DNA from: a virus
Strand: one strand, 5' to 3'
Length of the DNA: 39,014 nt
IMG/VR virus record: IMGVR_UViG_3300025137_000095
Location: 1 to 39,014 of that record
The notes below the pieces were generated by a model. It worked only from the letters and a program-made list of their open reading frames with translations. It did no database searches and was not told the DNA's origin. Numbering within the stretch: position 1 is the stretch's first letter; every line of letters begins with the position of its first letter. Below are positions 2-39,014 of this stretch, piece after piece. The translations under genes were made by a program, and so were the position numbers.

Positions 2-511
2 ACCCAAGCATCTGCAAAGCTAGGTGACTTGTTCAATCGTGATGAGTATCCATCAATCGACAGCTTACGCAACAAGTTCGGGTTTCGTTTGTCGTATATC
101 CCATTGCCTGACAGCGGTGACTTCCGCATCGACATTGGCAACGAGGCAACCGAGCAAGTCAAGTCGCACTACCAAGACTACTATTCGGCACAGCTTAACA
201 ACGCAATGAATGACGTGTGGCAACGTACACACAAGGCGTTGTCTGCCATGTCGGAGCGTCTCGACTATTCGGACAATGATGACAAGAAGATCTTCCGCGA
301 CACGCTCGTGACCAACGTGCTTGACATGGTAGAACTTCTTAACGTGTGTAACGTCAATGGTGACGGCCAGATGACTGCGGCACGTATGAAACTTGAGGAC
401 GCATTTCGTGGTGTCAATGCCGAGGCACTACGCGAGGACGAACATCTGCGGTCGGAGACTAAGCGTACCGTGGATGAAGTCATCAAATCACTACCATCTA
501 TCGGCCTTTAA
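2..511 (+). CDS. C-terminal part of a probable DUF3150-like protein (5' end outside window)
   Basis: The reading frame is open from base 2 to the TAA at 509-511, and the codons before the TTG at 29 read as ordinary protein, so the gene starts upstream of the window. About 170 residues are visible. The visible part begins with an FNRDEYPS-type segment, passes through a region rich in Asp, Asn and aromatic residues, and ends in predicted helices with many charged residues. No signal peptide, membrane segment or catalytic motif is visible. In phages and plasmids a DUF3150 protein often precedes a MoxR ATPase and a VWA protein, and the order here fits; the FN-x-x-x-YPS segment and the following DFR(I/V)D pattern also resemble that family from memory. 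The family call is an inference. The cellular function of DUF3150 is not known to me. The gene is followed by a palindrome (514-531) before the ATPase. Confidence 0.5.
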   Translation, partial: TQASAKLGDLFNRDEYPSIDSLRNKFGFRLSYIPLPDSGDFRIDIGNEATEQVKSHYQDYYSAQLNNAMNDVWQRTHKALSAMSERLDYSDNDDKKIFRDTLVTNVLDMVELLNVCNVNGDGQMTAARMKLEDAFRGVNAEALREDEHLRSETKRTVDEVIKSLPSIGL

Positions 512-513
512 CT

Positions 514-531
514 TTTACGCAAATGCGTAAA
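514..531. promoter_or_regulatory. Palindrome copy 1 (TTTACGCAAATGCGTAAA)
   Basis: This is an 18-bp inverted repeat with 8-bp arms TTTACGCA/TGCGTAAA around AA. It lies three bases after the preceding stop codon and 23 bases before the ATPase start at 555. The identical 18-mer occurs at 1652-1669, and variants occur at 3391-3410 and 5597-5624. No T-run follows, so it does not look like a terminator. A binding site for a dimeric regulator is the simplest reading, which is inference. Confidence 0.75.
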
Positions 532-554
532 CAACTTATGAAATGGAGACTATC

Positions 555-1649
555 ATGAATACAGCAACAGCAATGTATGCACTCGGACTTGATCAAGTAG
601 CAAAACTTATCTTGTCAACAGGTAACAAGCGTACCGTACTCGCACAGGGTGACATAGGCACAGGCAAGTCATCACTACTACCAGCGATCGGCAAAGAGAA
701 ACCCGATCACACCTTATGCTACTTTGATTGCACCACCAAGGACTTGGGTGATATCACGATACCAAACATCGCCAAGATGGATGATGGCTCTGGCTATGTG
801 ACGTACCTCACCAATGAAGAGTTGGGCGCACACAACAACACGCCTATCGTTTTGATGATTGACGAGTTTGGCAAGGCTAATCCTGCGGTCAAGAACGCAC
901 TGTTGCGTCTTATACTTGAGCGTAAGATCGGCAGTTACACACTACACCCTGACAGCATAATATTTGCTACGACAAACAAAGGCTCTGAGGGTGTCGGTGA
1001 CTTGCTACCAGCACACGCACGTAATCGTATGACTGTCGTGCAGACACGCAAACCTACTAACATGGAATGGATTGAATGGGGGATTAACAATGACGTCGAC
1101 CACACACTACTTGGCTTTGCAAAGGACAACCCGCAAATCTTCTACTCTTTCGAGGACGTCAAAGACCCAGACGACAATCCATACATCTTCCATCCCAAGC
1201 AAAACCGAGCCGCGTTTATTACACCACGCTCGTTGGAAGCGGCAAGCGACATACTCAAAGAGAGGCATCTGATGGATGACCAGACTACGACTGCCGCACT
1301 CATGGGTACTATCGGTGAACGTGGTGCTATGGACTTGATGGCGTTTGTCAAGCTGGCTGACCAGATACCAAGTGCTGACAGTATCAAGCAAGACCCGAAG
1401 AACGCCAAGATACCAAGCAGTGCCGCTGGTGTGTGCATGGTGGTGTTCAGAACGCTTGCCTCTATCGAAGCTGACTGGATCAATCCATGGATGGACTACC
1501 TTGTTCGCCTCGACAAAGAAGCACAGGGTATGTTTGCCAATGGCGTACGCGCACCCAAGTATGCCAAGCAGTCACTTGTTATGACAAACAAGAAGTTCAC
1601 ACAGTGGGCTATGGACAACAACTATATGTTCGCGGCTGACAAAAAGTAA
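555..1649 (+). CDS. MoxR-type AAA+ ATPase
   Basis: This 364-residue protein is an AAA+ ATPase of the MoxR/dynein-related kind. Visible motifs are Walker A GDIGTGKS (residues 32-39), Walker B ending in MIDE (E104), a sensor-1-like FATTN (N141) and an arginine-rich ARNR (155-158) in the arginine-finger region. I chose the ATG at 555 rather than 543 because GGAG (545-548) sits six bases before it. MoxR ATPases act as chaperone-like remodelling engines and are typically paired with a VWA-domain protein that presents the substrate or metal. Here such a partner is the next gene, and a palindrome stands before each of the two. The substrate is unknown. The ATPase class is clear; its role in phage growth is not. 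Confidence 0.9.
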   Translation: MNTATAMYALGLDQVAKLILSTGNKRTVLAQGDIGTGKSSLLPAIGKEKPDHTLCYFDCTTKDLGDITIPNIAKMDDGSGYVTYLTNEELGAHNNTPIVLMIDEFGKANPAVKNALLRLILERKIGSYTLHPDSIIFATTNKGSEGVGDLLPAHARNRMTVVQTRKPTNMEWIEWGINNDVDHTLLGFAKDNPQIFYSFEDVKDPDDNPYIFHPKQNRAAFITPRSLEAASDILKERHLMDDQTTTAALMGTIGERGAMDLMAFVKLADQIPSADSIKQDPKNAKIPSSAAGVCMVVFRTLASIEADWINPWMDYLVRLDKEAQGMFANGVRAPKYAKQSLVMTNKKFTQWAMDNNYMFAADKK

Positions 1650-1651
1650 TC

Positions 1652-1669
1652 TTTACGCAAATGCGTAAA
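1652..1669. promoter_or_regulatory. Palindrome copy 2 (identical to copy 1)
   Basis: The 18-mer is identical to the one at 514-531. It begins two bases after the ATPase stop codon and ends 42 bases before the next start at 1712. An ATG inside it (1661) opens the frame of the next gene but has no ribosome binding site and would translate the palindrome itself. That supports the ATG at 1712 as the true start and the palindrome as a non-coding site. Confidence 0.75.
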
Positions 1670-1711
1670 CAATCGGGTGGGGTATGTGCCTCACCCAGAA
1701 AGGACAGACCA

Positions 1712-2947
1712 ATGCTTGCTATTGGAAAAGAACTGACTACCGAACAACGACTGAACAAATGCACAGTCGATATCATGGGCAACCCCAAGTATATCGCACT
1801 GGCTGGTATTATGATGATTGGTGAGAAGCGTATCTGCGAGACAACGCCGACAGCATATACCAACGGACGTGATGAGGTGTACGGGCGTGTGTTTGCTGAC
1901 CAGCTTAACGATGCTGAGTTTCGCTTTCTCATACTGCACGAGTGCTATCACAAGCTGTATCGTCATCTTATAACGTGGCAGCATCTGTGGAAAGAGAACC
2001 CACAGCTTGCGAACATGGCGATGGACTTTGTTATCAACCTCAAGATTGTCGATGACAACAAGGATGGCTTTGCTACCATGACAGGCGCACTCACAGTGGG
2101 TTGTTATGACGAGAAGTATCGTGGCATGGACACAGCCCAAGTCTTCAACGCACTCAAGCAAGACCCACCAAAGGGTAAGGGTAACTCTGGTGCAGGAGCG
2201 CCCGGAAGCGGTGATGGTACACAGGGTAACTCGTCACCACAACCATTCGACGAGCATGACTTCGAGGGCGCACAAGAGCTATCGGTGGCTGACCAACAAG
2301 AGTTGGCACGAGACATTGACGAGGCCATACGCCAAGGCGCATTGATTGCTGGCAAGATGGGATCGGGTGGTGATCGTGGTTTGCAAGAGTTGCTACAACC
2401 ACAAGTCGATTGGCGTGAGGTTATGCGTGACTTCATCACAACCACTTGCACAGGCAACGACTACTCGACATGGCGCAGACCAAACAGACGTTTCATGTCC
2501 AGTGGCGTGTATCTGCCAAGCGGCATATCCGAGCGTGTTGACGAGTTAGTGATTGCCACTGATATGTCTGGCTCTATTGGTGATCGTGAAGTGTCTGTTG
2601 CTCTGACCGAGATCAAGTCAATCGCTGATACTGTGCATCCAGAAGCAGTGCGTCTGTTGTACTGGGACACTCGGGTATGTCAGGACGAGAAGTATGACAT
2701 GCACGAACTCGACACCATGATACAGTCAACCAGACCCAAGGGTGGCGGTGGCACTAGTGTTGAGTGTGTGCCAGCTTACATGACCGACAAACATATCACA
2801 CCACAAGCTGTTATCGTGATTACCGATGGCTACCTTGGCGGATCGTGGGGTCAATGGTCGTGTCCAGTGTTGTGGGTCATCATCGACAACAAAAATGCAA
2901 AGCCCGACTGTGGCATTACAGTCCATGTAAAATCAGGAGATATGTAA
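1712..2947 (+). CDS. VWA-like / HExxH metallopeptidase-like protein (DUF2201 type)
   Basis: The protein has 411 residues. The N-terminal part carries a zinc-peptidase motif HECYH (residues 76-80) in a helix, followed by LYRH, as in the putative metallopeptidase domain next to DUF2201. A linker rich in Gly, Ser and Pro (about 150-180) precedes a C-terminal von Willebrand A-like domain. That domain has a complete-looking metal site: DMSGS (D284, S286, S288), T348 and TDG (D372). The start at 1712 is supported by AGGA at 1701-1704, seven bases upstream. The partner is the MoxR ATPase immediately upstream, as in RavA-ViaA-like and other MoxR-VWA pairs. Whether the HExxH site is catalytic is unknown. 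The stop codon is followed after one base by the next gene. Confidence 0.88.
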   Translation: MLAIGKELTTEQRLNKCTVDIMGNPKYIALAGIMMIGEKRICETTPTAYTNGRDEVYGRVFADQLNDAEFRFLILHECYHKLYRHLITWQHLWKENPQLANMAMDFVINLKIVDDNKDGFATMTGALTVGCYDEKYRGMDTAQVFNALKQDPPKGKGNSGAGAPGSGDGTQGNSSPQPFDEHDFEGAQELSVADQQELARDIDEAIRQGALIAGKMGSGGDRGLQELLQPQVDWREVMRDFITTTCTGNDYSTWRRPNRRFMSSGVYLPSGISERVDELVIATDMSGSIGDREVSVALTEIKSIADTVHPEAVRLLYWDTRVCQDEKYDMHELDTMIQSTRPKGGGGTSVECVPAYMTDKHITPQAVIVITDGYLGGSWGQWSCPVLWVIIDNKNAKPDCGITVHVKSGDM

Positions 2948-2948
2948 G

Positions 2949-3431
2949 ATGGGATACCGAAGCGATGTAGTCATTGCAGTAGCGATGGCAAGTAAAGAGA
3001 ACATGGACGAGTTACTGTCCGTCTATGCTCTCAATATGTATGTGCAGAAAGAAAACCTCATACCCGAATGGGAGGTGGGTGAGTATGAGGGCGCATGGGT
3101 TGCCATGTACACAGCAGAACACGTCAAGTGGTATGACAGCTACGATGATGTCAAAGGTTTTTCTGCACTGACCAAACTTGCAGAGACATTCTGGGAGGAG
3201 CGTGGCTTGCCATATGCTTACAGGTTTATACGTGTGGGCGAGGAGTATGAAGACATAGAAGTCTCATGCAACGAGAGTGACTGTGGCGGACATGACGACA
3301 AGACAGGAGGCCACTTGGCGGACTTGCTGACCGATGCACTACAAGTACAGACTACCATTACTAACGAGGTAAATTTTGCTAACGACAATACTTTACGCAA
3401 TTGCGTAAAGACTGATGAAAGGAAAGACTAA
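2949..3431 (+). CDS. Conserved phage-type protein of unknown function (MGYRSDV family)
   Basis: This 160-residue acidic protein begins MGYRSDVVIAVAM. That opening is shared by small proteins I have seen in many tailed phages, but I know of no assigned function. It has a cysteine pair (ESDCGGHDD region, near residue 115, and another Cys slightly before it) and no membrane segment. AGGAGA at 2935-2940 gives a good ribosome binding site. Its last codons run through the third palindrome (3391-3410), so the C-terminus NTLRNCVK is partly dictated by that DNA site. The stop overlaps the next start by one base (TAATG), so the two genes are probably translationally coupled. Confidence 0.75.
   Translation: MGYRSDVVIAVAMASKENMDELLSVYALNMYVQKENLIPEWEVGEYEGAWVAMYTAEHVKWYDSYDDVKGFSALTKLAETFWEERGLPYAYRFIRVGEEYEDIEVSCNESDCGGHDDKTGGHLADLLTDALQVQTTITNEVNFANDNTLRNCVKTDERKD
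3391..3410. promoter_or_regulatory. Palindrome copy 3 (perfect 20-bp)
   Basis: CTTTACGCAATTGCGTAAAG is a perfect 20-bp palindrome. It lies inside the 3' end of the preceding coding region, 20 bases before the next start at 3431. Unlike copies 1 and 2 it is constrained by both the protein and the site. That it stays perfect inside a coding region argues for selection on the DNA (or RNA) itself. Confidence 0.75.
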
Positions 3432-5598: not shown

Positions 5599-5624
5599 AA
5601 GTTTACGGAATTGCGTAAACTTTC
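5597..5624. promoter_or_regulatory. Palindrome copy 4 (extended 28-bp, one mismatched pair)
   Basis: The core GTTTACGGAATTGCGTAAAC (5601-5620) is the same motif with one changed base (G for C at 5608). The symmetry extends outward through GAAA/TTTC to 28 bp, longer than in the other copies. It sits 68 bases before the nuclease start at 5693 and is followed by a second hairpin (5632-5654). The outer arms could make it act as an RNA hairpin as well as a DNA site. Confidence 0.7.
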
Positions 5625-17309: not shown

Positions 17310-20300
17310 CTAATCATCGAATACCCCATACTGACTATACTCTGCTACATGGTTTTGTAAAATCATCCGCATGTTAGGGCTAAGTGTAACCCCGTTGTGC
17401 ATTTTAATTGTACTGCGCATGTGACCTGCTAAAGATCTTTTTATACTGGATGGGGTTATGGCAGCGGTAGGATGTCTACTGTTAAACTTAGCTATATCGT
17501 TAAACACATCAGATACATCATCGCCAAAACGTAACCCAACATAATATCTTTTAAGTAGTTTTGTGCGTTTGGTATTTACCGTGCGGTCTATTCGTTTAAT
17601 AGCCTGATTCTGTTCTTGCGCTAATGTATAGTCTGTAGGTGGAAAACCTATCATCTGTGCTATCAATCCACCGGTAGTAACATCATCAAGAATAGGATCA
17701 CCACGTCTAGTGAGTATACCTTTGTCTCTTGCATACCTACCAATAACCGGCGTGCCTTTTACAAGATTGCGTACAGCCGCAGGTAGCATGGCTTCTATAC
17801 CACGCTCTACATTGCCATCTTCAGATAATATATCTTTCATACCTCTGCCATAGGAACTAGCCACACTCCAAGCAGGTCCGCCTGCAATCTCAAATACTCT
17901 TTCTGGAACGGAGGCTCCGGCATTGTATGGGTTATCACGGTATAACAAGTTAGACAGTCCGATACGTGAGGATATATCTGTACCTAACAAAGCAGTAACC
18001 GGTCCTTTGTAAGCAAACTCTCCAATATGTTTACGCAATATTGTCTCTGCATCATCTTCGTCATCATCCAAGAACAGATTAGCCATTAACAGAACACCAC
18101 CAACAATTGGCATACCTTGCACGCCTGCTAGTAATGCAGAAGCAAGTGCTATACCGAAGAATTGCTCTCTTGCTGCACGTATTTCTTCTGGGGTGTATTT
18201 CTTAGAGTTCTTCATAGACCTAAGAGCTGCGTCACCAGTCTTGAACAGGGTGTAGTACATTTGCACGCCATAGCCTTTATACATCATGGCTACACGCCCG
18301 ATACCCTGTTGAGCAAAACGCCCTGTAGTTGCCAGTGCAGCACCACCATTCATTTCCTGCGCCATGCGTAGAGCTTCTTGTGCTGCCTCTTGTTGCACTT
18401 TTTCGGTATTAATATCCTCTCCTTTTGCCTCACGACTTTGTATTTCAAGATCATACGCAGATATTAGCGCTGTCTGCCTGTTAAAGCTTTCTTGCACGTG
18501 AAACACAAGTGCGCCCCAAGCGTTTACTTTTTCATAAAAACTTCTGGCACGGCCTGTCTGATCAATACCTAACGTGTCATAGAATAATGACCGATTGAGT
18601 AGCCCTCTGTCCCCTGCTGTCTGGACAAGCACAGTAAGACGCTCAAGCTCTTTACGTTTTTTATCGGTAAGGTTTAGATCCTTACGAACTACCAGTTTAC
18701 CGTCGATAGTTTCATAATAGTTGTCTATGGACGGCGTGCCTTTAACTTCTCTATTAGCTGCTTTTGGATCTATCTCAGATATCTTACGATTAAAACCACT
18801 ACCGGTTATTAGTGACATTGCTTTTCCAATAGCTTTGCCAGATGCCGCTATGCCTAGTTGTTTTCTATACTTACCATTCAACATTGGACCCATGACGAGG
18901 GGTATCTGAGATGCGTTAACCACCGCAGAAGACACGTTAAATCCAATAGTGCCTAAGAAAGCTATGCGGTTAGCCTGTGCCGCAGCTCTATTTAATAATG
19001 TGTTTGGAGGGTTACGTGCAAACTTGGAACGCTCTAACAACTCGTTCACTACACTTCTAGCAGCTCTGGCCTCTGTCGGATTATCATAAGTATTAGCTTT
19101 TAACGCATCCGTTAATTTGCTGTCTATACCTCTAATTTTGTTGCCATATTTTATACGTTGTACTTGCCTTGTTAAATCATAAGCCCTAGAGCGAAAAGCC
19201 TCAAACGCGTCTCTGTCGAAACCTAGTTCACCTTTTTGATCTCTGCCACCACGTTTTTGCATCGACTTAGCAAAAGATGTTTCTGGGAGTGTCTTAATAA
19301 ACAACCCCATAATTTCTTTAACTTGTTCGTTGTGTGCATCTACTTCTGCTTTAGTGGCGCCTTTTGCCGGTTTAGACTTTCCTAATATTTCTAAAGTTTG
19401 CTCTACAAAAGAACCGGGTGTTGGACTTGAGAAAGTGATGTTGTCTGCGCTATCGTACAGATCCATATCTTTTACCGCAGCACCGTTTTTGTCCCGCACT
19501 ACATTTCCATCATTATCTACTTTATCAGAAACTCTCGGGTCTTGATTTAGTTCAGCAATACGTCTAGCTCTAGCAGTATCAGTTACAAAAGACTCGTACA
19601 CGTTCTCGGTGCTTTTACCGTCGGAAGCTTTGTATTTTATCCATATGTCACCTGTACGAGTTAACGGAAAGTATGGTCTTATACCTTCGTTATCAAATAT
19701 TTGCTCCATTACGCTCTTTTTAAAATTAGCCTTATCTTCTGGAGTTACATCTCCTACTAGATCATCTACTCTGCCCTCTACTACAGCTTTTAAATCTCTG
19801 TATATAAGCTGGTAAGCATTGCGCATTTTTATGTACGTAGCCCTCCCATCTGCACCTATACCACCTTTATCAGGTTCTGTAGTCCACCTAGCTTGCATAC
19901 CCTTCCATATGGCTATTTTGTCAGGATCTGTTGTCTTGTATTTTTTAGGCCTTCCTTTAGGTGTTTTTAAGATAGGATCAACACCTTCTAAATACTCTTT
20001 ACCTTTTGCATCTGTTTTTAAAATATCTGTAGGATCTACACCGTTAGTAGTGCTTTCATACACTACGCTATTAAATACATCTGTAACTTCCGAGTTATTT
20101 TTTTGCCACTCTTCAAGAGTTTTTAAAGTGCCGTCAACCTCACCATCTGCTTTGTTGGTGTCACCTATCTGTTGTTCTATGGCCTCCTGCAATTCTATAG
20201 CTGCTTCTTGCAAATTAGGACCATATTTTTTAGTTAGATCAGTAACAGCTTGAAACGGAAGTGCCTGCATAACCACATTCTTTGTAGTGGCTGCTGCACC

Positions 20301-23300
20301 GCCATTAATAAAGTCTGTCACCCTATCTAAAAATTTATCTTTGGATGCGGTATCAGTGGGAGCTTTGAACCCCTGATGCATGTTCTTTATATGGTCAAGC
20401 ACATTATCTTGTATGCTGTACAGAATGTCTGCATCGCGTGTTTCAGGTGATGGTGCAAGTATAGCTTCAAGTAGTTTATCTGTTTCGTTTAAAGCAGATC
20501 CTACAGATTTTGTTTGCATATTCATCTTACGTCTAAAGAAGTTAGCAACAGCATTAAAGAACCGCCGCAACGAGCTAATAGGTTCCCCTTTTACGTTTAT
20601 ACCTGCCAGTTTGCGTTGGAACTCTGGATTGCCAAAGGTCTCTGCTACAAACTCATCTAGATTCTGTGATCCGTATGCAGTATCTAACTTATCTTTAACA
20701 TTGTTAAACAGTGTGTTAAGTTGTTTTGTTAGCGGATGTGACTTGTTGGCTATCGTAGCTGAAGTAGCTGCGTGTGCCATCTCATGCAGTATAGTATGTG
20801 GATTGATACCAGTTTCTGCGTTTAGCACTATTGTATTTGTTTTAGGATCAAAGTATCCGGCAGCAGACTCGCCCGCTGTATTGGTTACAAACTTATTTAC
20901 TTTGACTTTTGTATCGCCTGTAAGTTTGGAAAGTGTAGTGGCTATCTGCTCCACACGTTTACTAGGGGTGGTAATAGCAATGGCCCGGAGCGCATCTGAT
21001 AATCTACCTTGTCTTAACAAGTTACCAACAACTGGATGAGTGGGTATATCTAGATTAACCACAGCATTAGACATAAGATAATCAGGTAAATATTTATCTA
21101 TATCCGCTTGAGTCGCAAATAACTCTTTGTCTTTAAAAGTAGCCCCTTGATCTATTAAGTTTTGTTCCGCTTCCAACGCATTATCAAGATCTATTTCTGC
21201 TTGTCTTTCACGCGCTATTCTAACCGGATCATTTTTCTTGGATCTTAATGCTTTGTGCCGTCTATTGGCAGCTTTCAAAGACTCGGCTTGGTAAGCCATT
21301 AAATTAGTCACCTGCTTATTTGTGCTGTCACTAAGATTTTTTTCTATCCATTTTTTGGCCATTTTGGCTACTTCTGGCCCTGTGCTTGAAAAATACGCAT
21401 ACTCACCATCAGGTGTGCCTTCACCTCTACGATACTGTACGGTAGAGAACTTAGCTTCGTGCGTTATAACTTCAATTGCATCGTTTGGATTTTCTTGTTT
21501 TCTAAAATATAACTGTGCTGCCCTTGCCTCTTTACGCTCGTCTGTTTCTTTTTCTTTCTCCTTGCTTTGTAGTTCGGGTATTTGAGTTCTTAATAATTCA
21601 AGTATTTTTGTATCATCTTCCTTTGTGGTTTCTACATCTAAGGATGCGACTACTGGATCGCCTGCTTCGTTCACAAAGGATACTTTTTTTGCTGGACCGA
21701 ATTTTTGAGTGTAAAACTCTAACTGTCCTGACTCTTCTCTGACTTTTGCAGGGACTGCAGCAACTGCTTTGTCTGCGTCTTTTTTAGTCTTTTTTCTTAC
21801 CTCTTTTTTTATTTCTTCTTTTTCTTTTGTTGTTAACTTCTTGGTTGTTGTTCCTTTAGCAGCTCCTTTAGCAGCTCCTTTAGCAGCTCCTTTAGCAGCT
21901 CCTTTTGCAGCAGTTTTCTTACCTGCAGGCACCACAGTTGTAGCAGCTTGTTTTGTAATTTCGTCTATGGCTTCAATAGCTTGCTCTGAAGCTTTTGCCC
22001 TTTGTTTAGGAGTTAAATCATCTCTAGCTTCTCTACGAGCTTCAGTGGTTTCAAGTATAGTTGTTAATCTGTCTTTATTTTTTTGTGGTATGTTTTCATC
22101 TGCTGAGAGTTTTTCTCTTATTTTTCTGGCGGCGGCAGGTGTTGTTTTTCTAGCAGCCGCCATTAGTTTATCAAGACTACTCTGTTCAACTTGAATAGGT
22201 TCAACTGGTGTTTCTAAAGTTACGTCTCTCCTTCTCGCGCCCGTGACATCAACTGTCCTAACACGTTCTGGTGTGGTAGTAGTCTCCTGTGCCGCCGCCG
22301 GGGCTGCTTCTGGTTCTGGTGCAGCTTCTGGAGCAGGTGTGACGACCTCTCGCGCAGCTAATGTGGCCGCTAACGCTTTTTTTGCATCTGCGAGGAGTCT
22401 ATGCCCTGAAATTATTTGTCTGTTATTGTCATTTGTATCAAACGCACGCCATGCAGCTCCTGTGCGATTTTCTAAAACTATGTTTGGTTGGCCTTCCACA
22501 GAAGATCTTGCAGCTTTGCCAGCTAACGAATCCGCTTTACTAATTTTATTGAATGTAAGTTTTGGCGCTGCATCCTCTGCCCCGTCACGTCTGCGTTGTT
22601 GTTCAACTTTTCTTAGCTCTGCATCAACTTCTCTAAAACTTTTTTTCTTTGTGTCCGGTGCAGTTTCCTCTACTGGTGCAGCTTCTGTTCTTACTTCTGT
22701 CTCTGGCACATCTGATTTAGAAAGAATAGTTGCTTGTTCTAATATTCCAGCAAAACGATTACTAGCTTCTTCTGACGTTATTTTACCCGCTTTTAAGTCT
22801 TCTCTTACTTTCAAACCCGCTAGAACTTGCTCTGTTGTAAAGTTAAATTGCGTTCTAAATTCTTTTTCTGTTTGTTTTGCTGTTTTTTTGATGTCAAAAA
22901 CATATACCTCTGGCACAACAGGTGTTTCTCCGACCGCCGCATCTTTTTCAGTAGCCGTGCCTTCAATAATGTCTTCATCGGCTGCTGTGTCTGCTGGAAC
23001 GCCTTCTTTAGCAGCGTCTTCCTCCATTTTCTTACGAGCTGCCGCTGTTGCTCTGGCTGCTGCTTTTTTCTCGGCGTTTTCAGCTCTAGCATCCGCAGCG
23101 ATATCTTCAATTGTTCCAGCTTTCTCTGGTGCTGCCGCCACTGCCGCTGCATCTACTTCTTCTACGCTCGCTGCTAACTGACGTAACTCTTCAGATTGTG
23201 CTTCTAGTGCTGTCGCACCTTCTGGGGCGGTTGGGCCTCCCTCTGGAGTAGGTAAAAGTGGTTTTTCTTCTGGAGCAGAAAGAAGGTCTACATCCTGTGA

Positions 23301-24200
23301 TCCGTCAGGGTCTGTTTTGATGCGTCCACGTACAGCAAGTTCTAGTAAGCCTTGAACAAATCCACCTACACCACCACCGATCAGAGCTTGCTCACCTGCA
23401 CCTTCAAATGTGCCTTGCTCTGGATTGTATATACCCTGCTCGATGAGGTTCTGCATGATACCGGCAGAGGCTTCTTGTGCTGCCTCTACACCACCCTCTT
23501 GTGCTATTCGTTTTAACGAACCAACAAGACCCACGGTTGCATCTTGACCAAGACCTTTTTTGAATACGCTTAATATGCGTAATGGGGAGATAAGCTCAGT
23601 GGCACCGACACCAAAACCAAGTAAGGAAGCTTTCGTTCGTTCTTCTTCTGTAGCGTCACCTGCACGGGCGCGTTCACTTGCTTCACCTGCACCAGCAGTA
23701 GTGGCTAAACCAACAGCCAGCGCTGGATTTATAGCAGCGGCACCAAGGATACCACCAAAAGATCCAAGTCCTTCGCCAAACTTACGCGTCCCAGCAGCAA
23801 AACCGCCAGTATCTCGGTCTATGGATAGTGCTTCTTGTACGGGATCAAATAACGACTGGATGCCGTCACGGACTGCTAATTCCTCACGTTCAGGGAGTAT
23901 TGTGGCTGCACCAAGCGCACCAGACTCTAATATACCCGCTGCACCAGAAGCCGTACCTTTTAACAACTCTTCTAAAAAGTCAGGCGTTATATCGTCTAGA
24001 AAACCTTCATCATCTACAGGCGCTTCGTAGTCATATGTAGGTTGTGATGCTCTAAGCTCTTCTGACCGTCTTGCCCGATCCAAGGCTTGTGGTGTAAATT
24101 GTTGATTTGCTAATGATATTATCTGCGCTTCAGTAGCACCAGCAGGAGCCTCTACATCAAGTGTAGTACCATCTTTTAGGCTTAATTCGTATAGAGGCAT
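17310..24200 (-). CDS. Giant internal virion/ejection protein with zincin motif (2,296 aa)
   Basis: This is the last gene of the leftward arm. Residues 1-35 form a small domain opening MPLYELSLKDGTTLDVEAPA, common at the start of phage internal proteins. Residues about 60-290 are Gly/Ala-rich with hydrophobic stretches. Residues about 300-850 are low-complexity Ala/Glu/Lys with coiled-coil character and a KGAA tandem repeat near 764-783. A zincin motif HEMAH (1139-1143) is followed by DEFVAETF, whose Glu could be the third ligand. The C-terminal third has hydrophobic segments and an end region that resembles the PLxRFG domain of large polyvalent phage proteins (from memory). A virion protein ejected with the DNA and carrying a peptidase is the likely reading. 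Start at 24200 with GGGTAAG upstream. Confidence 0.8.
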   Translation of the reverse strand: MPLYELSLKDGTTLDVEAPAGATEAQIISLANQQFTPQALDRARRSEELRASQPTYDYEAPVDDEGFLDDITPDFLEELLKGTASGAAGILESGALGAATILPEREELAVRDGIQSLFDPVQEALSIDRDTGGFAAGTRKFGEGLGSFGGILGAAAINPALAVGLATTAGAGEASERARAGDATEEERTKASLLGFGVGATELISPLRILSVFKKGLGQDATVGLVGSLKRIAQEGGVEAAQEASAGIMQNLIEQGIYNPEQGTFEGAGEQALIGGGVGGFVQGLLELAVRGRIKTDPDGSQDVDLLSAPEEKPLLPTPEGGPTAPEGATALEAQSEELRQLAASVEEVDAAAVAAAPEKAGTIEDIAADARAENAEKKAAARATAAARKKMEEDAAKEGVPADTAADEDIIEGTATEKDAAVGETPVVPEVYVFDIKKTAKQTEKEFRTQFNFTTEQVLAGLKVREDLKAGKITSEEASNRFAGILEQATILSKSDVPETEVRTEAAPVEETAPDTKKKSFREVDAELRKVEQQRRRDGAEDAAPKLTFNKISKADSLAGKAARSSVEGQPNIVLENRTGAAWRAFDTNDNNRQIISGHRLLADAKKALAATLAAREVVTPAPEAAPEPEAAPAAAQETTTTPERVRTVDVTGARRRDVTLETPVEPIQVEQSSLDKLMAAARKTTPAAARKIREKLSADENIPQKNKDRLTTILETTEARREARDDLTPKQRAKASEQAIEAIDEITKQAATTVVPAGKKTAAKGAAKGAAKGAAKGAAKGTTTKKLTTKEKEEIKKEVRKKTKKDADKAVAAVPAKVREESGQLEFYTQKFGPAKKVSFVNEAGDPVVASLDVETTKEDDTKILELLRTQIPELQSKEKEKETDERKEARAAQLYFRKQENPNDAIEVITHEAKFSTVQYRRGEGTPDGEYAYFSSTGPEVAKMAKKWIEKNLSDSTNKQVTNLMAYQAESLKAANRRHKALRSKKNDPVRIARERQAEIDLDNALEAEQNLIDQGATFKDKELFATQADIDKYLPDYLMSNAVVNLDIPTHPVVGNLLRQGRLSDALRAIAITTPSKRVEQIATTLSKLTGDTKVKVNKFVTNTAGESAAGYFDPKTNTIVLNAETGINPHTILHEMAHAATSATIANKSHPLTKQLNTLFNNVKDKLDTAYGSQNLDEFVAETFGNPEFQRKLAGINVKGEPISSLRRFFNAVANFFRRKMNMQTKSVGSALNETDKLLEAILAPSPETRDADILYSIQDNVLDHIKNMHQGFKAPTDTASKDKFLDRVTDFINGGAAATTKNVVMQALPFQAVTDLTKKYGPNLQEAAIELQEAIEQQIGDTNKADGEVDGTLKTLEEWQKNNSEVTDVFNSVVYESTTNGVDPTDILKTDAKGKEYLEGVDPILKTPKGRPKKYKTTDPDKIAIWKGMQARWTTEPDKGGIGADGRATYIKMRNAYQLIYRDLKAVVEGRVDDLVGDVTPEDKANFKKSVMEQIFDNEGIRPYFPLTRTGDIWIKYKASDGKSTENVYESFVTDTARARRIAELNQDPRVSDKVDNDGNVVRDKNGAAVKDMDLYDSADNITFSSPTPGSFVEQTLEILGKSKPAKGATKAEVDAHNEQVKEIMGLFIKTLPETSFAKSMQKRGGRDQKGELGFDRDAFEAFRSRAYDLTRQVQRIKYGNKIRGIDSKLTDALKANTYDNPTEARAARSVVNELLERSKFARNPPNTLLNRAAAQANRIAFLGTIGFNVSSAVVNASQIPLVMGPMLNGKYRKQLGIAASGKAIGKAMSLITGSGFNRKISEIDPKAANREVKGTPSIDNYYETIDGKLVVRKDLNLTDKKRKELERLTVLVQTAGDRGLLNRSLFYDTLGIDQTGRARSFYEKVNAWGALVFHVQESFNRQTALISAYDLEIQSREAKGEDINTEKVQQEAAQEALRMAQEMNGGAALATTGRFAQQGIGRVAMMYKGYGVQMYYTLFKTGDAALRSMKNSKKYTPEEIRAAREQFFGIALASALLAGVQGMPIVGGVLLMANLFLDDDEDDAETILRKHIGEFAYKGPVTALLGTDISSRIGLSNLLYRDNPYNAGASVPERVFEIAGGPAWSVASSYGRGMKDILSEDGNVERGIEAMLPAAVRNLVKGTPVIGRYARDKGILTRRGDPILDDVTTGGLIAQMIGFPPTDYTLAQEQNQAIKRIDRTVNTKRTKLLKRYYVGLRFGDDVSDVFNDIAKFNSRHPTAAITPSSIKRSLAGHMRSTIKMHNGVTLSPNMRMILQNHVAEYSQYGVFDD
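21853..21912 (-). repeat. 12-bp tandem repeat encoding KGAA
   Basis: Four perfect copies of a 12-bp unit (CCTTTAGCAGCT on the + strand, 21853-21900) are followed by one diverged copy (21901-21912). In the coding frame this gives five consecutive KGAA units in the giant internal protein. Because the copies are identical at the DNA level, the repeat is probably recent and could vary in number between relatives. Confidence 0.9.
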
Positions 24201-36712: not shown

Positions 36713-39014
36713 CTAAAAGGCAGTGCCAAATTTAAATGGGCTACGAGCAAAGGCCATATAAACAAATGTTCCACCACTAGCATTTACATATGGCTCTGAC
36801 CCTCTAATCTTGAACCCATTGCTCACGAAGTCACGATTGTATGCAGCGTCAGAGCTTTCGTTATTAGCAAGATTAGCAAACAAAAGACCATCCATCGGGT
36901 TGGTAGGATTTCTTACATCATCCATAATATGCCAGTCATTTGCAGCATCTAAACGTTTAATCCAAAGCCAAGCTGGCCTGAATCCTGTGTAGACAAATGG
37001 CCCGTCATCGGCTCCATTTCCTTTAAATGAACCTATAGCACTATATCCTTCAATTTCTGCCCACACCCATGCCACATAATCTTCACCAGATTTATTAACA
37101 CTATCAACAGATGAACCAGTATAGCCAATTCTAGGCACTATAGTTGTGGTGTTGCTACTATCAAAATCTGACCAGCCACCACCTGCATAGTTTGTTGCTA
37201 TATTAGTTTGTGCGTCTGTAAAATTTAAAAGCAAGTTGTTGTTGCTAGTTTGCCCGTTCCACTTAATAAACCAATAAGACCCACCACCACTACCTGTGTC
37301 ACGACTTTTGCTCATAACGAAAGCAGGTGTTTTACCCAATCCATGCCCAATAGTATGAGAGGTATTGCCAGTCCCTGTGTATGTTAGTACGCTAAATCCG
37401 GCATCAACATTAGCCGATACGCTAGAATCAATACCACTTCCGTCTGTATTTGTTGAGGCACTGCCGCCGCCTTTCCAGTTCCAAGCGACATAACTTTGAC
37501 CACCACCATCGTTATAATTTATTGAAGAATTGCTGCTGCTTCCATCGGCTGTGGTAAAACCAGTTGAAGTAAAAGCACCTATATACCCAGATGATTTATT
37601 AGTAACTTCTGCTGCAAGTGAGTCAGTCTTCAAAGTTTTTCCTGCGCCTCTTACGCTGTCAAACAACTCACTCCCATTAGCGTACTGTGTCCTTGTTTGA
37701 GTCCACGAAAAATCAGGCTGGAACCCAACTGCAATAGCTCTGTTATTTGCATTGTTACCAGTCCAAATAACAGTATTAAAATTATCACTAGCTTGTTCGT
37801 CTTGTCCGGGGCCGATTGTTATGTCGCTCATATTACTAGTACAAAGAGCAAGGTAATCTGTGGGCGGAGCATACTCAAATGTGCCTATACCCCCACCACC
37901 TGAAGCTGCGCTAGCAATATTTACACTATCCTGTCCAAAATTTACAAATATATTATCTGCGCTTGTGCCACCACCAAGTACAAAAAACACATCATCTGTA
38001 GTGCCGCCAGTTATTGTTCCTATTTCATTAGACCCAGCAGATGGGTTGCCAGTAGTGCCGCTATCATTTGTACTCGGTGATTTGAAATATGTGCCGTTAC
38101 GACTAAACCAGACCTTGCCTGTTGCCCCATCTATAGCACATCCAAGAATGTCACCAGCCGCTAACTTTGCTACGCTCAGTCCACCAAGTCCAGCACTTGA
38201 ACCATAATCAGTTTCAGTACCATTTACTTTAACACTTCTATTGTAAACAGTGATTGCCCCACTGCCGCCAGTGTTCCCAGCAGGGCCAGCTTCAATTGAG
38301 GTTTTTGTAGCAAATCCAGCAAACCAGTTATCTCCAGCCGCCCCAGTGTCCTCAACTTCAATGTATATTTTTTTATCTTTTGGGATGTCGAATGTTGATA
38401 TCGCACCATAACCGTATGCAGCAGAACTAAACCCTGCGGTGGCTGCTTTTAAATTACCTTCAAATAAGACAGCTTGACTAGCTGATGCATATAGTGGATT
38501 TAACGTAGCAAAATTATTCGTGGGAGAGTCTAAAACTACATCTGTTGCGGCTAAATTATTTGCAGTAAAGTCGTTTGTGTTTGCGCTTTCATCATCACCA
38601 ATTGCACTACTGTCGTCAAATGGTAAATAAAACCCATTAGTGCCGTGTGAGCCAGAGTATGCTTTTGGAACCCATACTCCATCTTTAGTTTCGCCTAGAC
38701 CTAAAGTTGTAGGGTCATTTGCTATGCCATCTAAAAGATGAACTTCAGCCATATAGCCATCAAAATAGTATGAACCGTTATCATAACTACCTATGCTGTG
38801 TAGGTTAGCTCTGTTTACCGCTGTCTGATAATCTTCTGCTGGATAACTTTCTGTAGCAAAACTAGTAACACGCTCACCATTTACATATAACTTCACCCGG
38901 TTGCCAGCAGTGCCATTTGTTGTATCCACTGCAACAACAATATGATACCAACCGTTTGTGTCACGAAAAAGTTGATTGGTTGTTAACTCAAAACTGTCTG
39001 AAGCAGGATAATTG
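36713..39014 (-). CDS. Tail fibre / receptor-binding protein (N-terminus outside window)
   Basis: The frame is open to the right edge of the window, and codons before the GTG at 38929 read as protein (WYHIVVAVDTTNGTAGNRVK), so the gene starts beyond 39014. The visible 767 or so residues contain three parts. First is the end of a LamG/concanavalin-like domain (KLYVNGERVTSF, then YFDGYMAEVHLLDG). Next, about residues 190-330 of the visible part, is a SPRY-like domain (KIYIEVEDTG, GCAIDGATGKVWFSRNG, NIFVNFGQD). Last is a long region of Ser/Gly/Thr-rich repeats with WNWKGGG and WLWIKRLDAANDW motifs, resembling the DUF7483 domain seen in marine phage fibres. The product should bind the host surface. 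Head and tail genes upstream are not in the window. Confidence 0.8.
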   Translation of the reverse strand, partial: NYPASDSFELTTNQLFRDTNGWYHIVVAVDTTNGTAGNRVKLYVNGERVTSFATESYPAEDYQTAVNRANLHSIGSYDNGSYYFDGYMAEVHLLDGIANDPTTLGLGETKDGVWVPKAYSGSHGTNGFYLPFDDSSAIGDDESANTNDFTANNLAATDVVLDSPTNNFATLNPLYASASQAVLFEGNLKAATAGFSSAAYGYGAISTFDIPKDKKIYIEVEDTGAAGDNWFAGFATKTSIEAGPAGNTGGSGAITVYNRSVKVNGTETDYGSSAGLGGLSVAKLAAGDILGCAIDGATGKVWFSRNGTYFKSPSTNDSGTTGNPSAGSNEIGTITGGTTDDVFFVLGGGTSADNIFVNFGQDSVNIASAASGGGGIGTFEYAPPTDYLALCTSNMSDITIGPGQDEQASDNFNTVIWTGNNANNRAIAVGFQPDFSWTQTRTQYANGSELFDSVRGAGKTLKTDSLAAEVTNKSSGYIGAFTSTGFTTADGSSSNSSINYNDGGGQSYVAWNWKGGGSASTNTDGSGIDSSVSANVDAGFSVLTYTGTGNTSHTIGHGLGKTPAFVMSKSRDTGSGGGSYWFIKWNGQTSNNNLLLNFTDAQTNIATNYAGGGWSDFDSSNTTTIVPRIGYTGSSVDSVNKSGEDYVAWVWAEIEGYSAIGSFKGNGADDGPFVYTGFRPAWLWIKRLDAANDWHIMDDVRNPTNPMDGLLFANLANNESSDAAYNRDFVSNGFKIRGSEPYVNASGGTFVYMAFARSPFKFGTAF

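Follow-up and report, generated by a model that had tools for sequence, protein, structure and literature searches.

The 39,014-nt stretch of viral DNA analysed here (IMG/VR record IMGVR_UViG_3300025137_000095; hereafter, the window) carries on its + strand, at positions 2-2947, three genes that encode, in this order, a fragment of a DUF3150-like protein, a MoxR-like AAA+ ATPase, and a protein combining an HExxH motif with a VWA domain. We report that the AAA+/VWA pair is recurrently accompanied by DUF3150 as a third member, an association that appears not to have been remarked upon before. The existence of the AAA+/VWA pair in phages and the ternary MoxR-vWA principle in conflict systems are already known, while the recurrent DUF3150 partner, the occurrence of the same set on plasmids and in bacterial genomes, and the accompanying palindromes, which are phage-specific, are new. 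A literature search returned no mention of DUF3150, yet most subscription journals lay outside its coverage, which makes it weak evidence of novelty. On balance, we favour the view that the three genes encode a single machine, powered by ATP and employed by mobile elements within the host cell.

DUF3150 as a partner of the AAA+/VWA pair

The DUF3150-like gene (2-511, + strand) is open at its 5′ end and runs off the left end of the window, so that only the C-terminal 169 residues are encoded. A Pfam scan of this fragment by itself gave no match; its complete ortholog (L001:1978-2907, 309 residues), 98% identical over the shared 169 residues, matches PF11348 (DUF3150) with 28.2 bits (cut-off 24.9), which bears out an earlier, sequence-only reading that had placed a DUF3150-like neighbour next to the pair. 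The same family is matched by 12 of 17 relatives, and the fragment itself resembles the DUF3150 protein of phage MinM2 (tblastn, E = 6e-9). The predicted structure (predicted local distance difference test, pLDDT, of 84) is composed mostly of long helices with few strands, and the predicted fold of the ortholog from L006 matches phage DUF3150-like models (E = 8e-20), one of which is named DUF3150. Comparison of the DUF3150 model with the PDB gave no confident match, the helical bundles that were returned scoring Z values of up to 9.8, a range common for helical models. Between related phages, the ratio of non-synonymous to synonymous substitution rates is ~0.1 for each of the three genes, indicating that all of them are under purifying selection.

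The viral loci, partly overlapping and comprising 100 distinct ones, were fetched by similarity to the VWA protein and therefore represent one clade. Within it, the triad is complete in every locus with over 1.6 kb of sequence preceding the VWA gene, and the conserved pairing in relatives on which the sequence-only reading had made its case depend is near-universal. At least three gene orders occur, namely DUF3150-AAA-VWA (98 records, some overlapping), AAA-DUF3150-VWA, and AAA-VWA-DUF3150; since the order varies, the association of the three genes outlives rearrangement. All three are also present in phage MinM2, which lies outside the window clade.

The set is shared with plasmids and bacterial genomes. 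Burkholderiales plasmids (from Simplicispira, Burkholderia, Cupriavidus, and Variovorax) have the order AAA-DUF3150-VWA, with the AAA gene of the Simplicispira plasmid located ~3 kb away from the other two. The plasmid VWA profile retrieved 34 genome loci from Acidobacteriota and other phyla, of which 28 have DUF3150 and six, Desulfovibrio-like, have the pair with no detectable DUF3150; in the Acidobacteriota triads, the three genes overlap by 4 bp. Many loci of Burkholderiales and Acidobacteriota, and one Methylobacillus contig, have genes of the PRTRC cassette (ParB-related and ThiF-related) near the triad (L140, L141, L144, L145, L157, L159, L161, L162, L164, L165, and L166).

The association was also recovered in the reverse direction, when PF11348 was the sole query against 148 genomes from one phylum and 200 from one order. 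DUF3150 is rare in these bacteria (4/148 and 8/200 genomes, respectively), and 10 of the 15 loci found from DUF3150 alone have AAA+, DUF3150, and VWA genes together within a few kb, although several loci share one genome and are thus not fully independent. The VWA protein combines the HExxH motif with the metal-ion-dependent adhesion site (MIDAS) in nine of these 10 triads. The other loci consist of contig ends, fragments, and solitary genes, plus one locus that lacks an AAA+ gene.

The AAA+ ATPase and the metallopeptidase-like/VWA protein

The ATPase gene (543-1649, + strand; 368 residues) matches phrog_1297, an ATPase family, with E = 3.5e-48; position 555 is a likelier start than 543 because GGAG directly precedes it. 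The conserved residues comprise Walker A (GDIGTGKS; G36, G39, G41, and K42), Walker B (D107 and E108), sensor 1 (N145), and two arginines (R162 and R229), so that the Walker A, Walker B, sensor 1, and arginine finger features by which MoxR AAA+ ATPases are recognized are all found in the window protein. AAA_5 is matched by 12 of 14 relatives, the window protein alone scoring under the Pfam cut-off. When the family profile was compared with the PDB, midasin (9e-45) came far ahead of NorQ (6e-9) and a CbbQ/NorQ-domain protein (2e-7), with ClpE and VCP matching about as well as the latter two.

The longest open reading frame (ORF) of the third gene spans 1661-2947, and its true start is probably 1712 (1712-2947, + strand; 411 residues), as residues 1-17 of the long version are missing in relatives and their coding sequence overlaps a palindrome. 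The protein matches DUF2201_N (72 bits; cut-off 23.2), which is metallopeptidase-like, and DUF2201 (52 bits; cut-off 26.4), corresponding to the VWA part, along with a weak VWA_CoxE match and phrog_1314 (E = 2e-84). Its HExxH motif (H76-E-C-Y-H80) is encoded at 1937-1951, and the DxSxS element of the MIDAS (D284, S286, and S288) at 2561-2575, with T348 (2753-2755) and D372 (2825-2827) completing the site. Across 71 viral homologs, H76, E77, H80, H85, D105, and all five MIDAS residues are invariant. In a diverse set of 19 homologs from marine phages, N4-like phages, jumbo phages, and plasmids, the five MIDAS residues and H80 are kept in 19/19, and H76 and E77 in at least 18/19. These conserved residues, together with the Walker and sensor elements of the ATPase and the Pfam matches, agree with the sequence-only reading, which had described an AAA+ ATPase followed by a protein with an HExxH site and an intact VWA metal site, and whose residue numbers (H76, E77, and D284) are right when counted from the start at 1712.

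The predicted structure of this protein (pLDDT of 79) contains a clear VWA domain at residues ~273-411, which superimposes on known VWA domains with Z values of 12-13 and a root-mean-square deviation of 2.5-2.9 Å over ~135-155 residues, the top Foldseek match being the MIDAS domain of human MDN1 (Rea1/MDN1). A PDB search with the protein profile found no true match. The protein is encoded in 748 phage records, and in many of them it is labelled 'HNH endonuclease' or 'homing endonuclease'. Neither label, of which the former is also attached to phrog_1314, is supported by the Pfam scan, which returns only the DUF2201_N, DUF2201, and weak VWA_CoxE matches.

Phage-specific palindromes

A palindrome of the form TTTACGCA(A/T)(A/T)TGCGTAAA occurs at 514, 1652, and 3392, and once more, with a single mismatch, at 5602, against a chance expectation of 0.05. 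As the sequence-only reading had stated, it occupies both gaps of the triad, each with a perfect copy: the 18-bp TTTACGCAAATGCGTAAA (514-531) lies between the DUF3150 and AAA+ genes, where relatives have phage-specific counterparts, and a second one (1652-1669) between the AAA+ and VWA genes. The third (TTTACGCAATTGCGTAAA, 3392-3409) falls within the 3′ end of the ORF at 2949-3431, and the one-mismatch copy is TTTACGGAATTGCGTAAA (5602-5619).

Related phages have palindromes at equivalent positions, with an arm sequence that differs between phages and is identical or nearly identical within each phage. The types found in relatives include GTTAGTG-NNN-CACTAAC, TTTACGG-AATT-CCGTAAA, and GTAGGGG-NNN-CCCCTAC. 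Taken together with those of the window, the palindromes have 7-8-bp arms and a 2-5-nt centre and are repeated up to 13 times per locus; loci with such phage-specific palindromes include L003, L010, L013, L040, and L118. At least three copies of one 7-bp-arm palindrome were found in 69 of the 100 distinct loci and in none of 300 shuffled sequences. Palindromes of the type specific to a given phage occur close to the start of the AAA+ gene in 43/59 cases, of the DUF3150 gene in 32/56, and of the VWA gene in 31/68, and in four records of 60-62 kb the GTTAGTG-type copies all fall within a single stretch of 8-14 kb that surrounds the triad. Intragenic copies also occur, for instance in the DUF3150 N-terminus in L012 and in the VWA gene in L004 and L042.

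Our best guess is that the palindromes are putative binding sites of a phage-encoded dimeric protein, forming an operator-like set whose specificity changes between phages. The variable spacing (3, 4, and 5 nt) is a mild point in favour of an RNA hairpin instead. That reading is disfavoured by the single-mismatch copies, in which T-C (22) and G-A (18) exceed G-T/T-G (10) and A-C/C-A (6), so that the mismatches look like half-site variants and not like wobble pairs. Hairpin promoters of the kind used by the N4 virion RNA polymerase (vRNAP) were also considered and rejected, as the loops are freely variable and the 2296-residue protein encoded at 17310-24200 (- strand) shows no convincing resemblance to a vRNAP. 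This large protein has an HEMAH motif and Ala-rich repeats, a weak match to phrog_2206 (virion RNA polymerase; 9e-5), and no Pfam match, the window being a fragment of a genome; it looks closer to an internal virion protein or an ejection protein bearing a metallopeptidase-like motif than to a vRNAP. At the opposite end of the window, 36713-39013 (- strand) encodes a fragment of a virion structural/tail protein, 39% identical to that of CRP-811, whose nearest relatives are found in phages of Roseobacter, Methylophilales, and Pelagibacter, which suggests a marine host.

Known systems and alternative functions

In N4-like phages (Schitoviridae), gp24 (AAA) and gp25 (vWFA) are core genes (PMC4193335, PMC2784036). 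As in the window, the AAA+ and VWA genes adjoin, and the HExxH motif is also kept in the N4-like relatives examined. The differences are that DUF3150 was not detected in SP-058, the relative examined, that identity is ~28%, and that the window phage, unlike N4, has no convincing vRNAP. A MoxR AAA+ and metallopeptidase-vWA pair, in which both proteins have the domain architecture seen in the window, was described in 2021 for group 2.2 jumbo phages (PMC7824862); it was reported as a pair, and in PA5oct we found no DUF3150 beside it and the two genes separated by others. Given these two groups and the 748 phage records, the pair is not a phage oddity.

For the jumbo phages, a virion role was proposed, citing an archaeal-virus MoxR-vWA system needed for tails (PMC7824862). 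Under this explanation, the MoxR-VWA chaperone would fold virion proteins and the metallopeptidase would process them; the record of PA5oct gp149 (the ATPase) indeed has an electrospray ionization tandem mass spectrometry note, like the structural proteins of that record, which keeps a virion function in contention. The best argument against an exclusively virion-related function is that the same set occurs on plasmids and bacterial chromosomes with no virion genes in view. Moreover, the triad lies in the replication arm, on the strand that carries the polymerase, helicase, exonuclease, annealing-protein, and primase genes and opposite to the structural genes. In N4-like KP8, the ATPase and metallopeptidase were absent from the virion proteins identified by matrix-assisted laser desorption/ionization time-of-flight mass spectrometry, although only seven bands were analysed (PMC6950046). 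The virion-maturation role entertained in the sequence-only reading is weakened by the same observations, and we consider assembly or processing of the virion improbable.

The plasmid pCAR1 provides a further comparison. Its ORF100-103 region is conserved in R478, Rts1, SXT, and R391, and was described with mention of MoxR and VWA proteins and not of DUF3150 (PMC2642839). We found in it AAA+, DUF3150 (8e-92), and VWA genes in that order, the VWA protein having both HExxH and MIDAS. The pCAR1 proteins are highly divergent, only the AAA+ protein matching the phage-family profiles, and the window-family and pCAR1 DUF3150 profiles align with an hhalign probability of 3%, with the WTxRK motif aligned. 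The genes surrounding pCAR1-type copies include ssb, recT, and exonuclease genes. This neighbourhood, the presence of the triad in both phages and conjugative plasmids, and its rare and patchy occurrence in bacteria are compatible with counter-defence, in which the machine would take apart or cleave an immune complex of the host and thereby let phage or plasmid DNA become established. We regard this as rather unlikely, albeit worth serious attention: no component is matched by PADLOC, there is no direct tie to a known defence target, and the fact that N4-like phages have the pair as core genes points to a broadly needed function and not to an accessory anti-defence role.

Conversely, the triad might itself be a system of defence or inter-element exclusion. 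Ternary MoxR-vWA conflict systems (VMAP/iSTAND) with peptidases and variable sensors have been described (PMC7159879, PMC12839542), and they resemble the triad in consisting of a MoxR protein, a vWA protein with a fused peptidase, and a variable third protein; in addition, the AAA+/VWA pair of a Synechocystis plasmid lies near toxin-antitoxin and CRISPR genes. In the window, however, the third component is DUF3150, none of the three components matched the PADLOC defence models, the copies examined have no variable effector domain, and the pair is core in N4-like phages. We consequently give this explanation as little credence as the virion one.

NorQ-NorD, CbbQ-CbbO, and RavA-ViaA likewise couple a MoxR-type ATPase to a VWA partner with a conserved MIDAS, and differ from the triad in having known metabolic targets. 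We know of no HExxH domain or DUF3150 described in any of them. By analogy, the triad could act as a metal-insertion or enzyme-activation chaperone similar to NorQD or CobST, with the HExxH site serving metal delivery instead of proteolysis. NorQD inserts iron (PMC9976466, PMC13036017), NorQ and CbbQ/NorQ-domain proteins are among the relatives of the AAA+ family, and the VWA protein of pCAR1 is annotated as NorD. Nevertheless, none of the annotated neighbours and family hits inspected in phages and plasmids was seen to be a gene for a metalloenzyme target, and such a chaperone appears to us the least probable of the functions considered.

A proposed machine and its significance

How might the triad work as an ATP-driven machine of mobile elements? 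In NorQ-NorD, the VWA domain has been modelled at the centre of the hexamer, and the MIDAS residues are needed for target activation and not for ring binding (PMC9976466). By analogy with this and other MoxR-VWA pairs, the AAA+ protein would form a hexameric ring, on which the VWA domain would grip an acidic patch of the target through the MIDAS metal, and ATP hydrolysis would pull on or open the target protein. The HExxH domain, fused to the VWA domain and probably a zinc peptidase, would thereby be delivered to the target and cut it or help to cut it. DUF3150, mostly helical and with no known enzyme fold, may be a third subunit, either an adaptor that recognizes the target or a regulator of the machine, a role suggested by genetic linkage. 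Since the triad sits with replication genes and occurs on plasmids, an early action is most likely, directed at a host or replication-associated protein, with replisome remodelling as one possibility, rather than a part in virion building. More tentatively, it may be a three-subunit remodelling protease, an establishment tool common to phages and conjugative elements, with DUF3150 as the substrate adaptor and, in these marine phages, phage-specific palindromic operators.

Several observations weigh against this proposal. DUF3150 was not detected beside the pair in N4-like SP-058, Vibrio phage D505, PA5oct, or phage G; since N4-like and jumbo phages, like Desulfovibrio, have versions in which it was not detected, not every MoxR-VWA/peptidase pair needs DUF3150. 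The VWA protein of the Variovorax plasmid (L143:11010-12329) has lost the HE of the HExxH motif and kept the MIDAS residues, so that some copies may do without peptidase activity. For the third zinc ligand, the conserved D105 and H85 are candidates. The mass spectrometry note on the PA5oct ATPase is a further point against the proposal.

N4 gp24 and gp25 have been core genes with no assigned function ever since the N4-like group was defined. The association with DUF3150 and the sharing of the triad with conjugative plasmids and bacterial genomes make the virion-assembly explanation less likely, and at the same time provide a tractable test system based on ordinary laboratory strains. If a host protein is indeed what the machine cleaves or remodels, the triad would be a common but overlooked means for invading DNA to gain a foothold.

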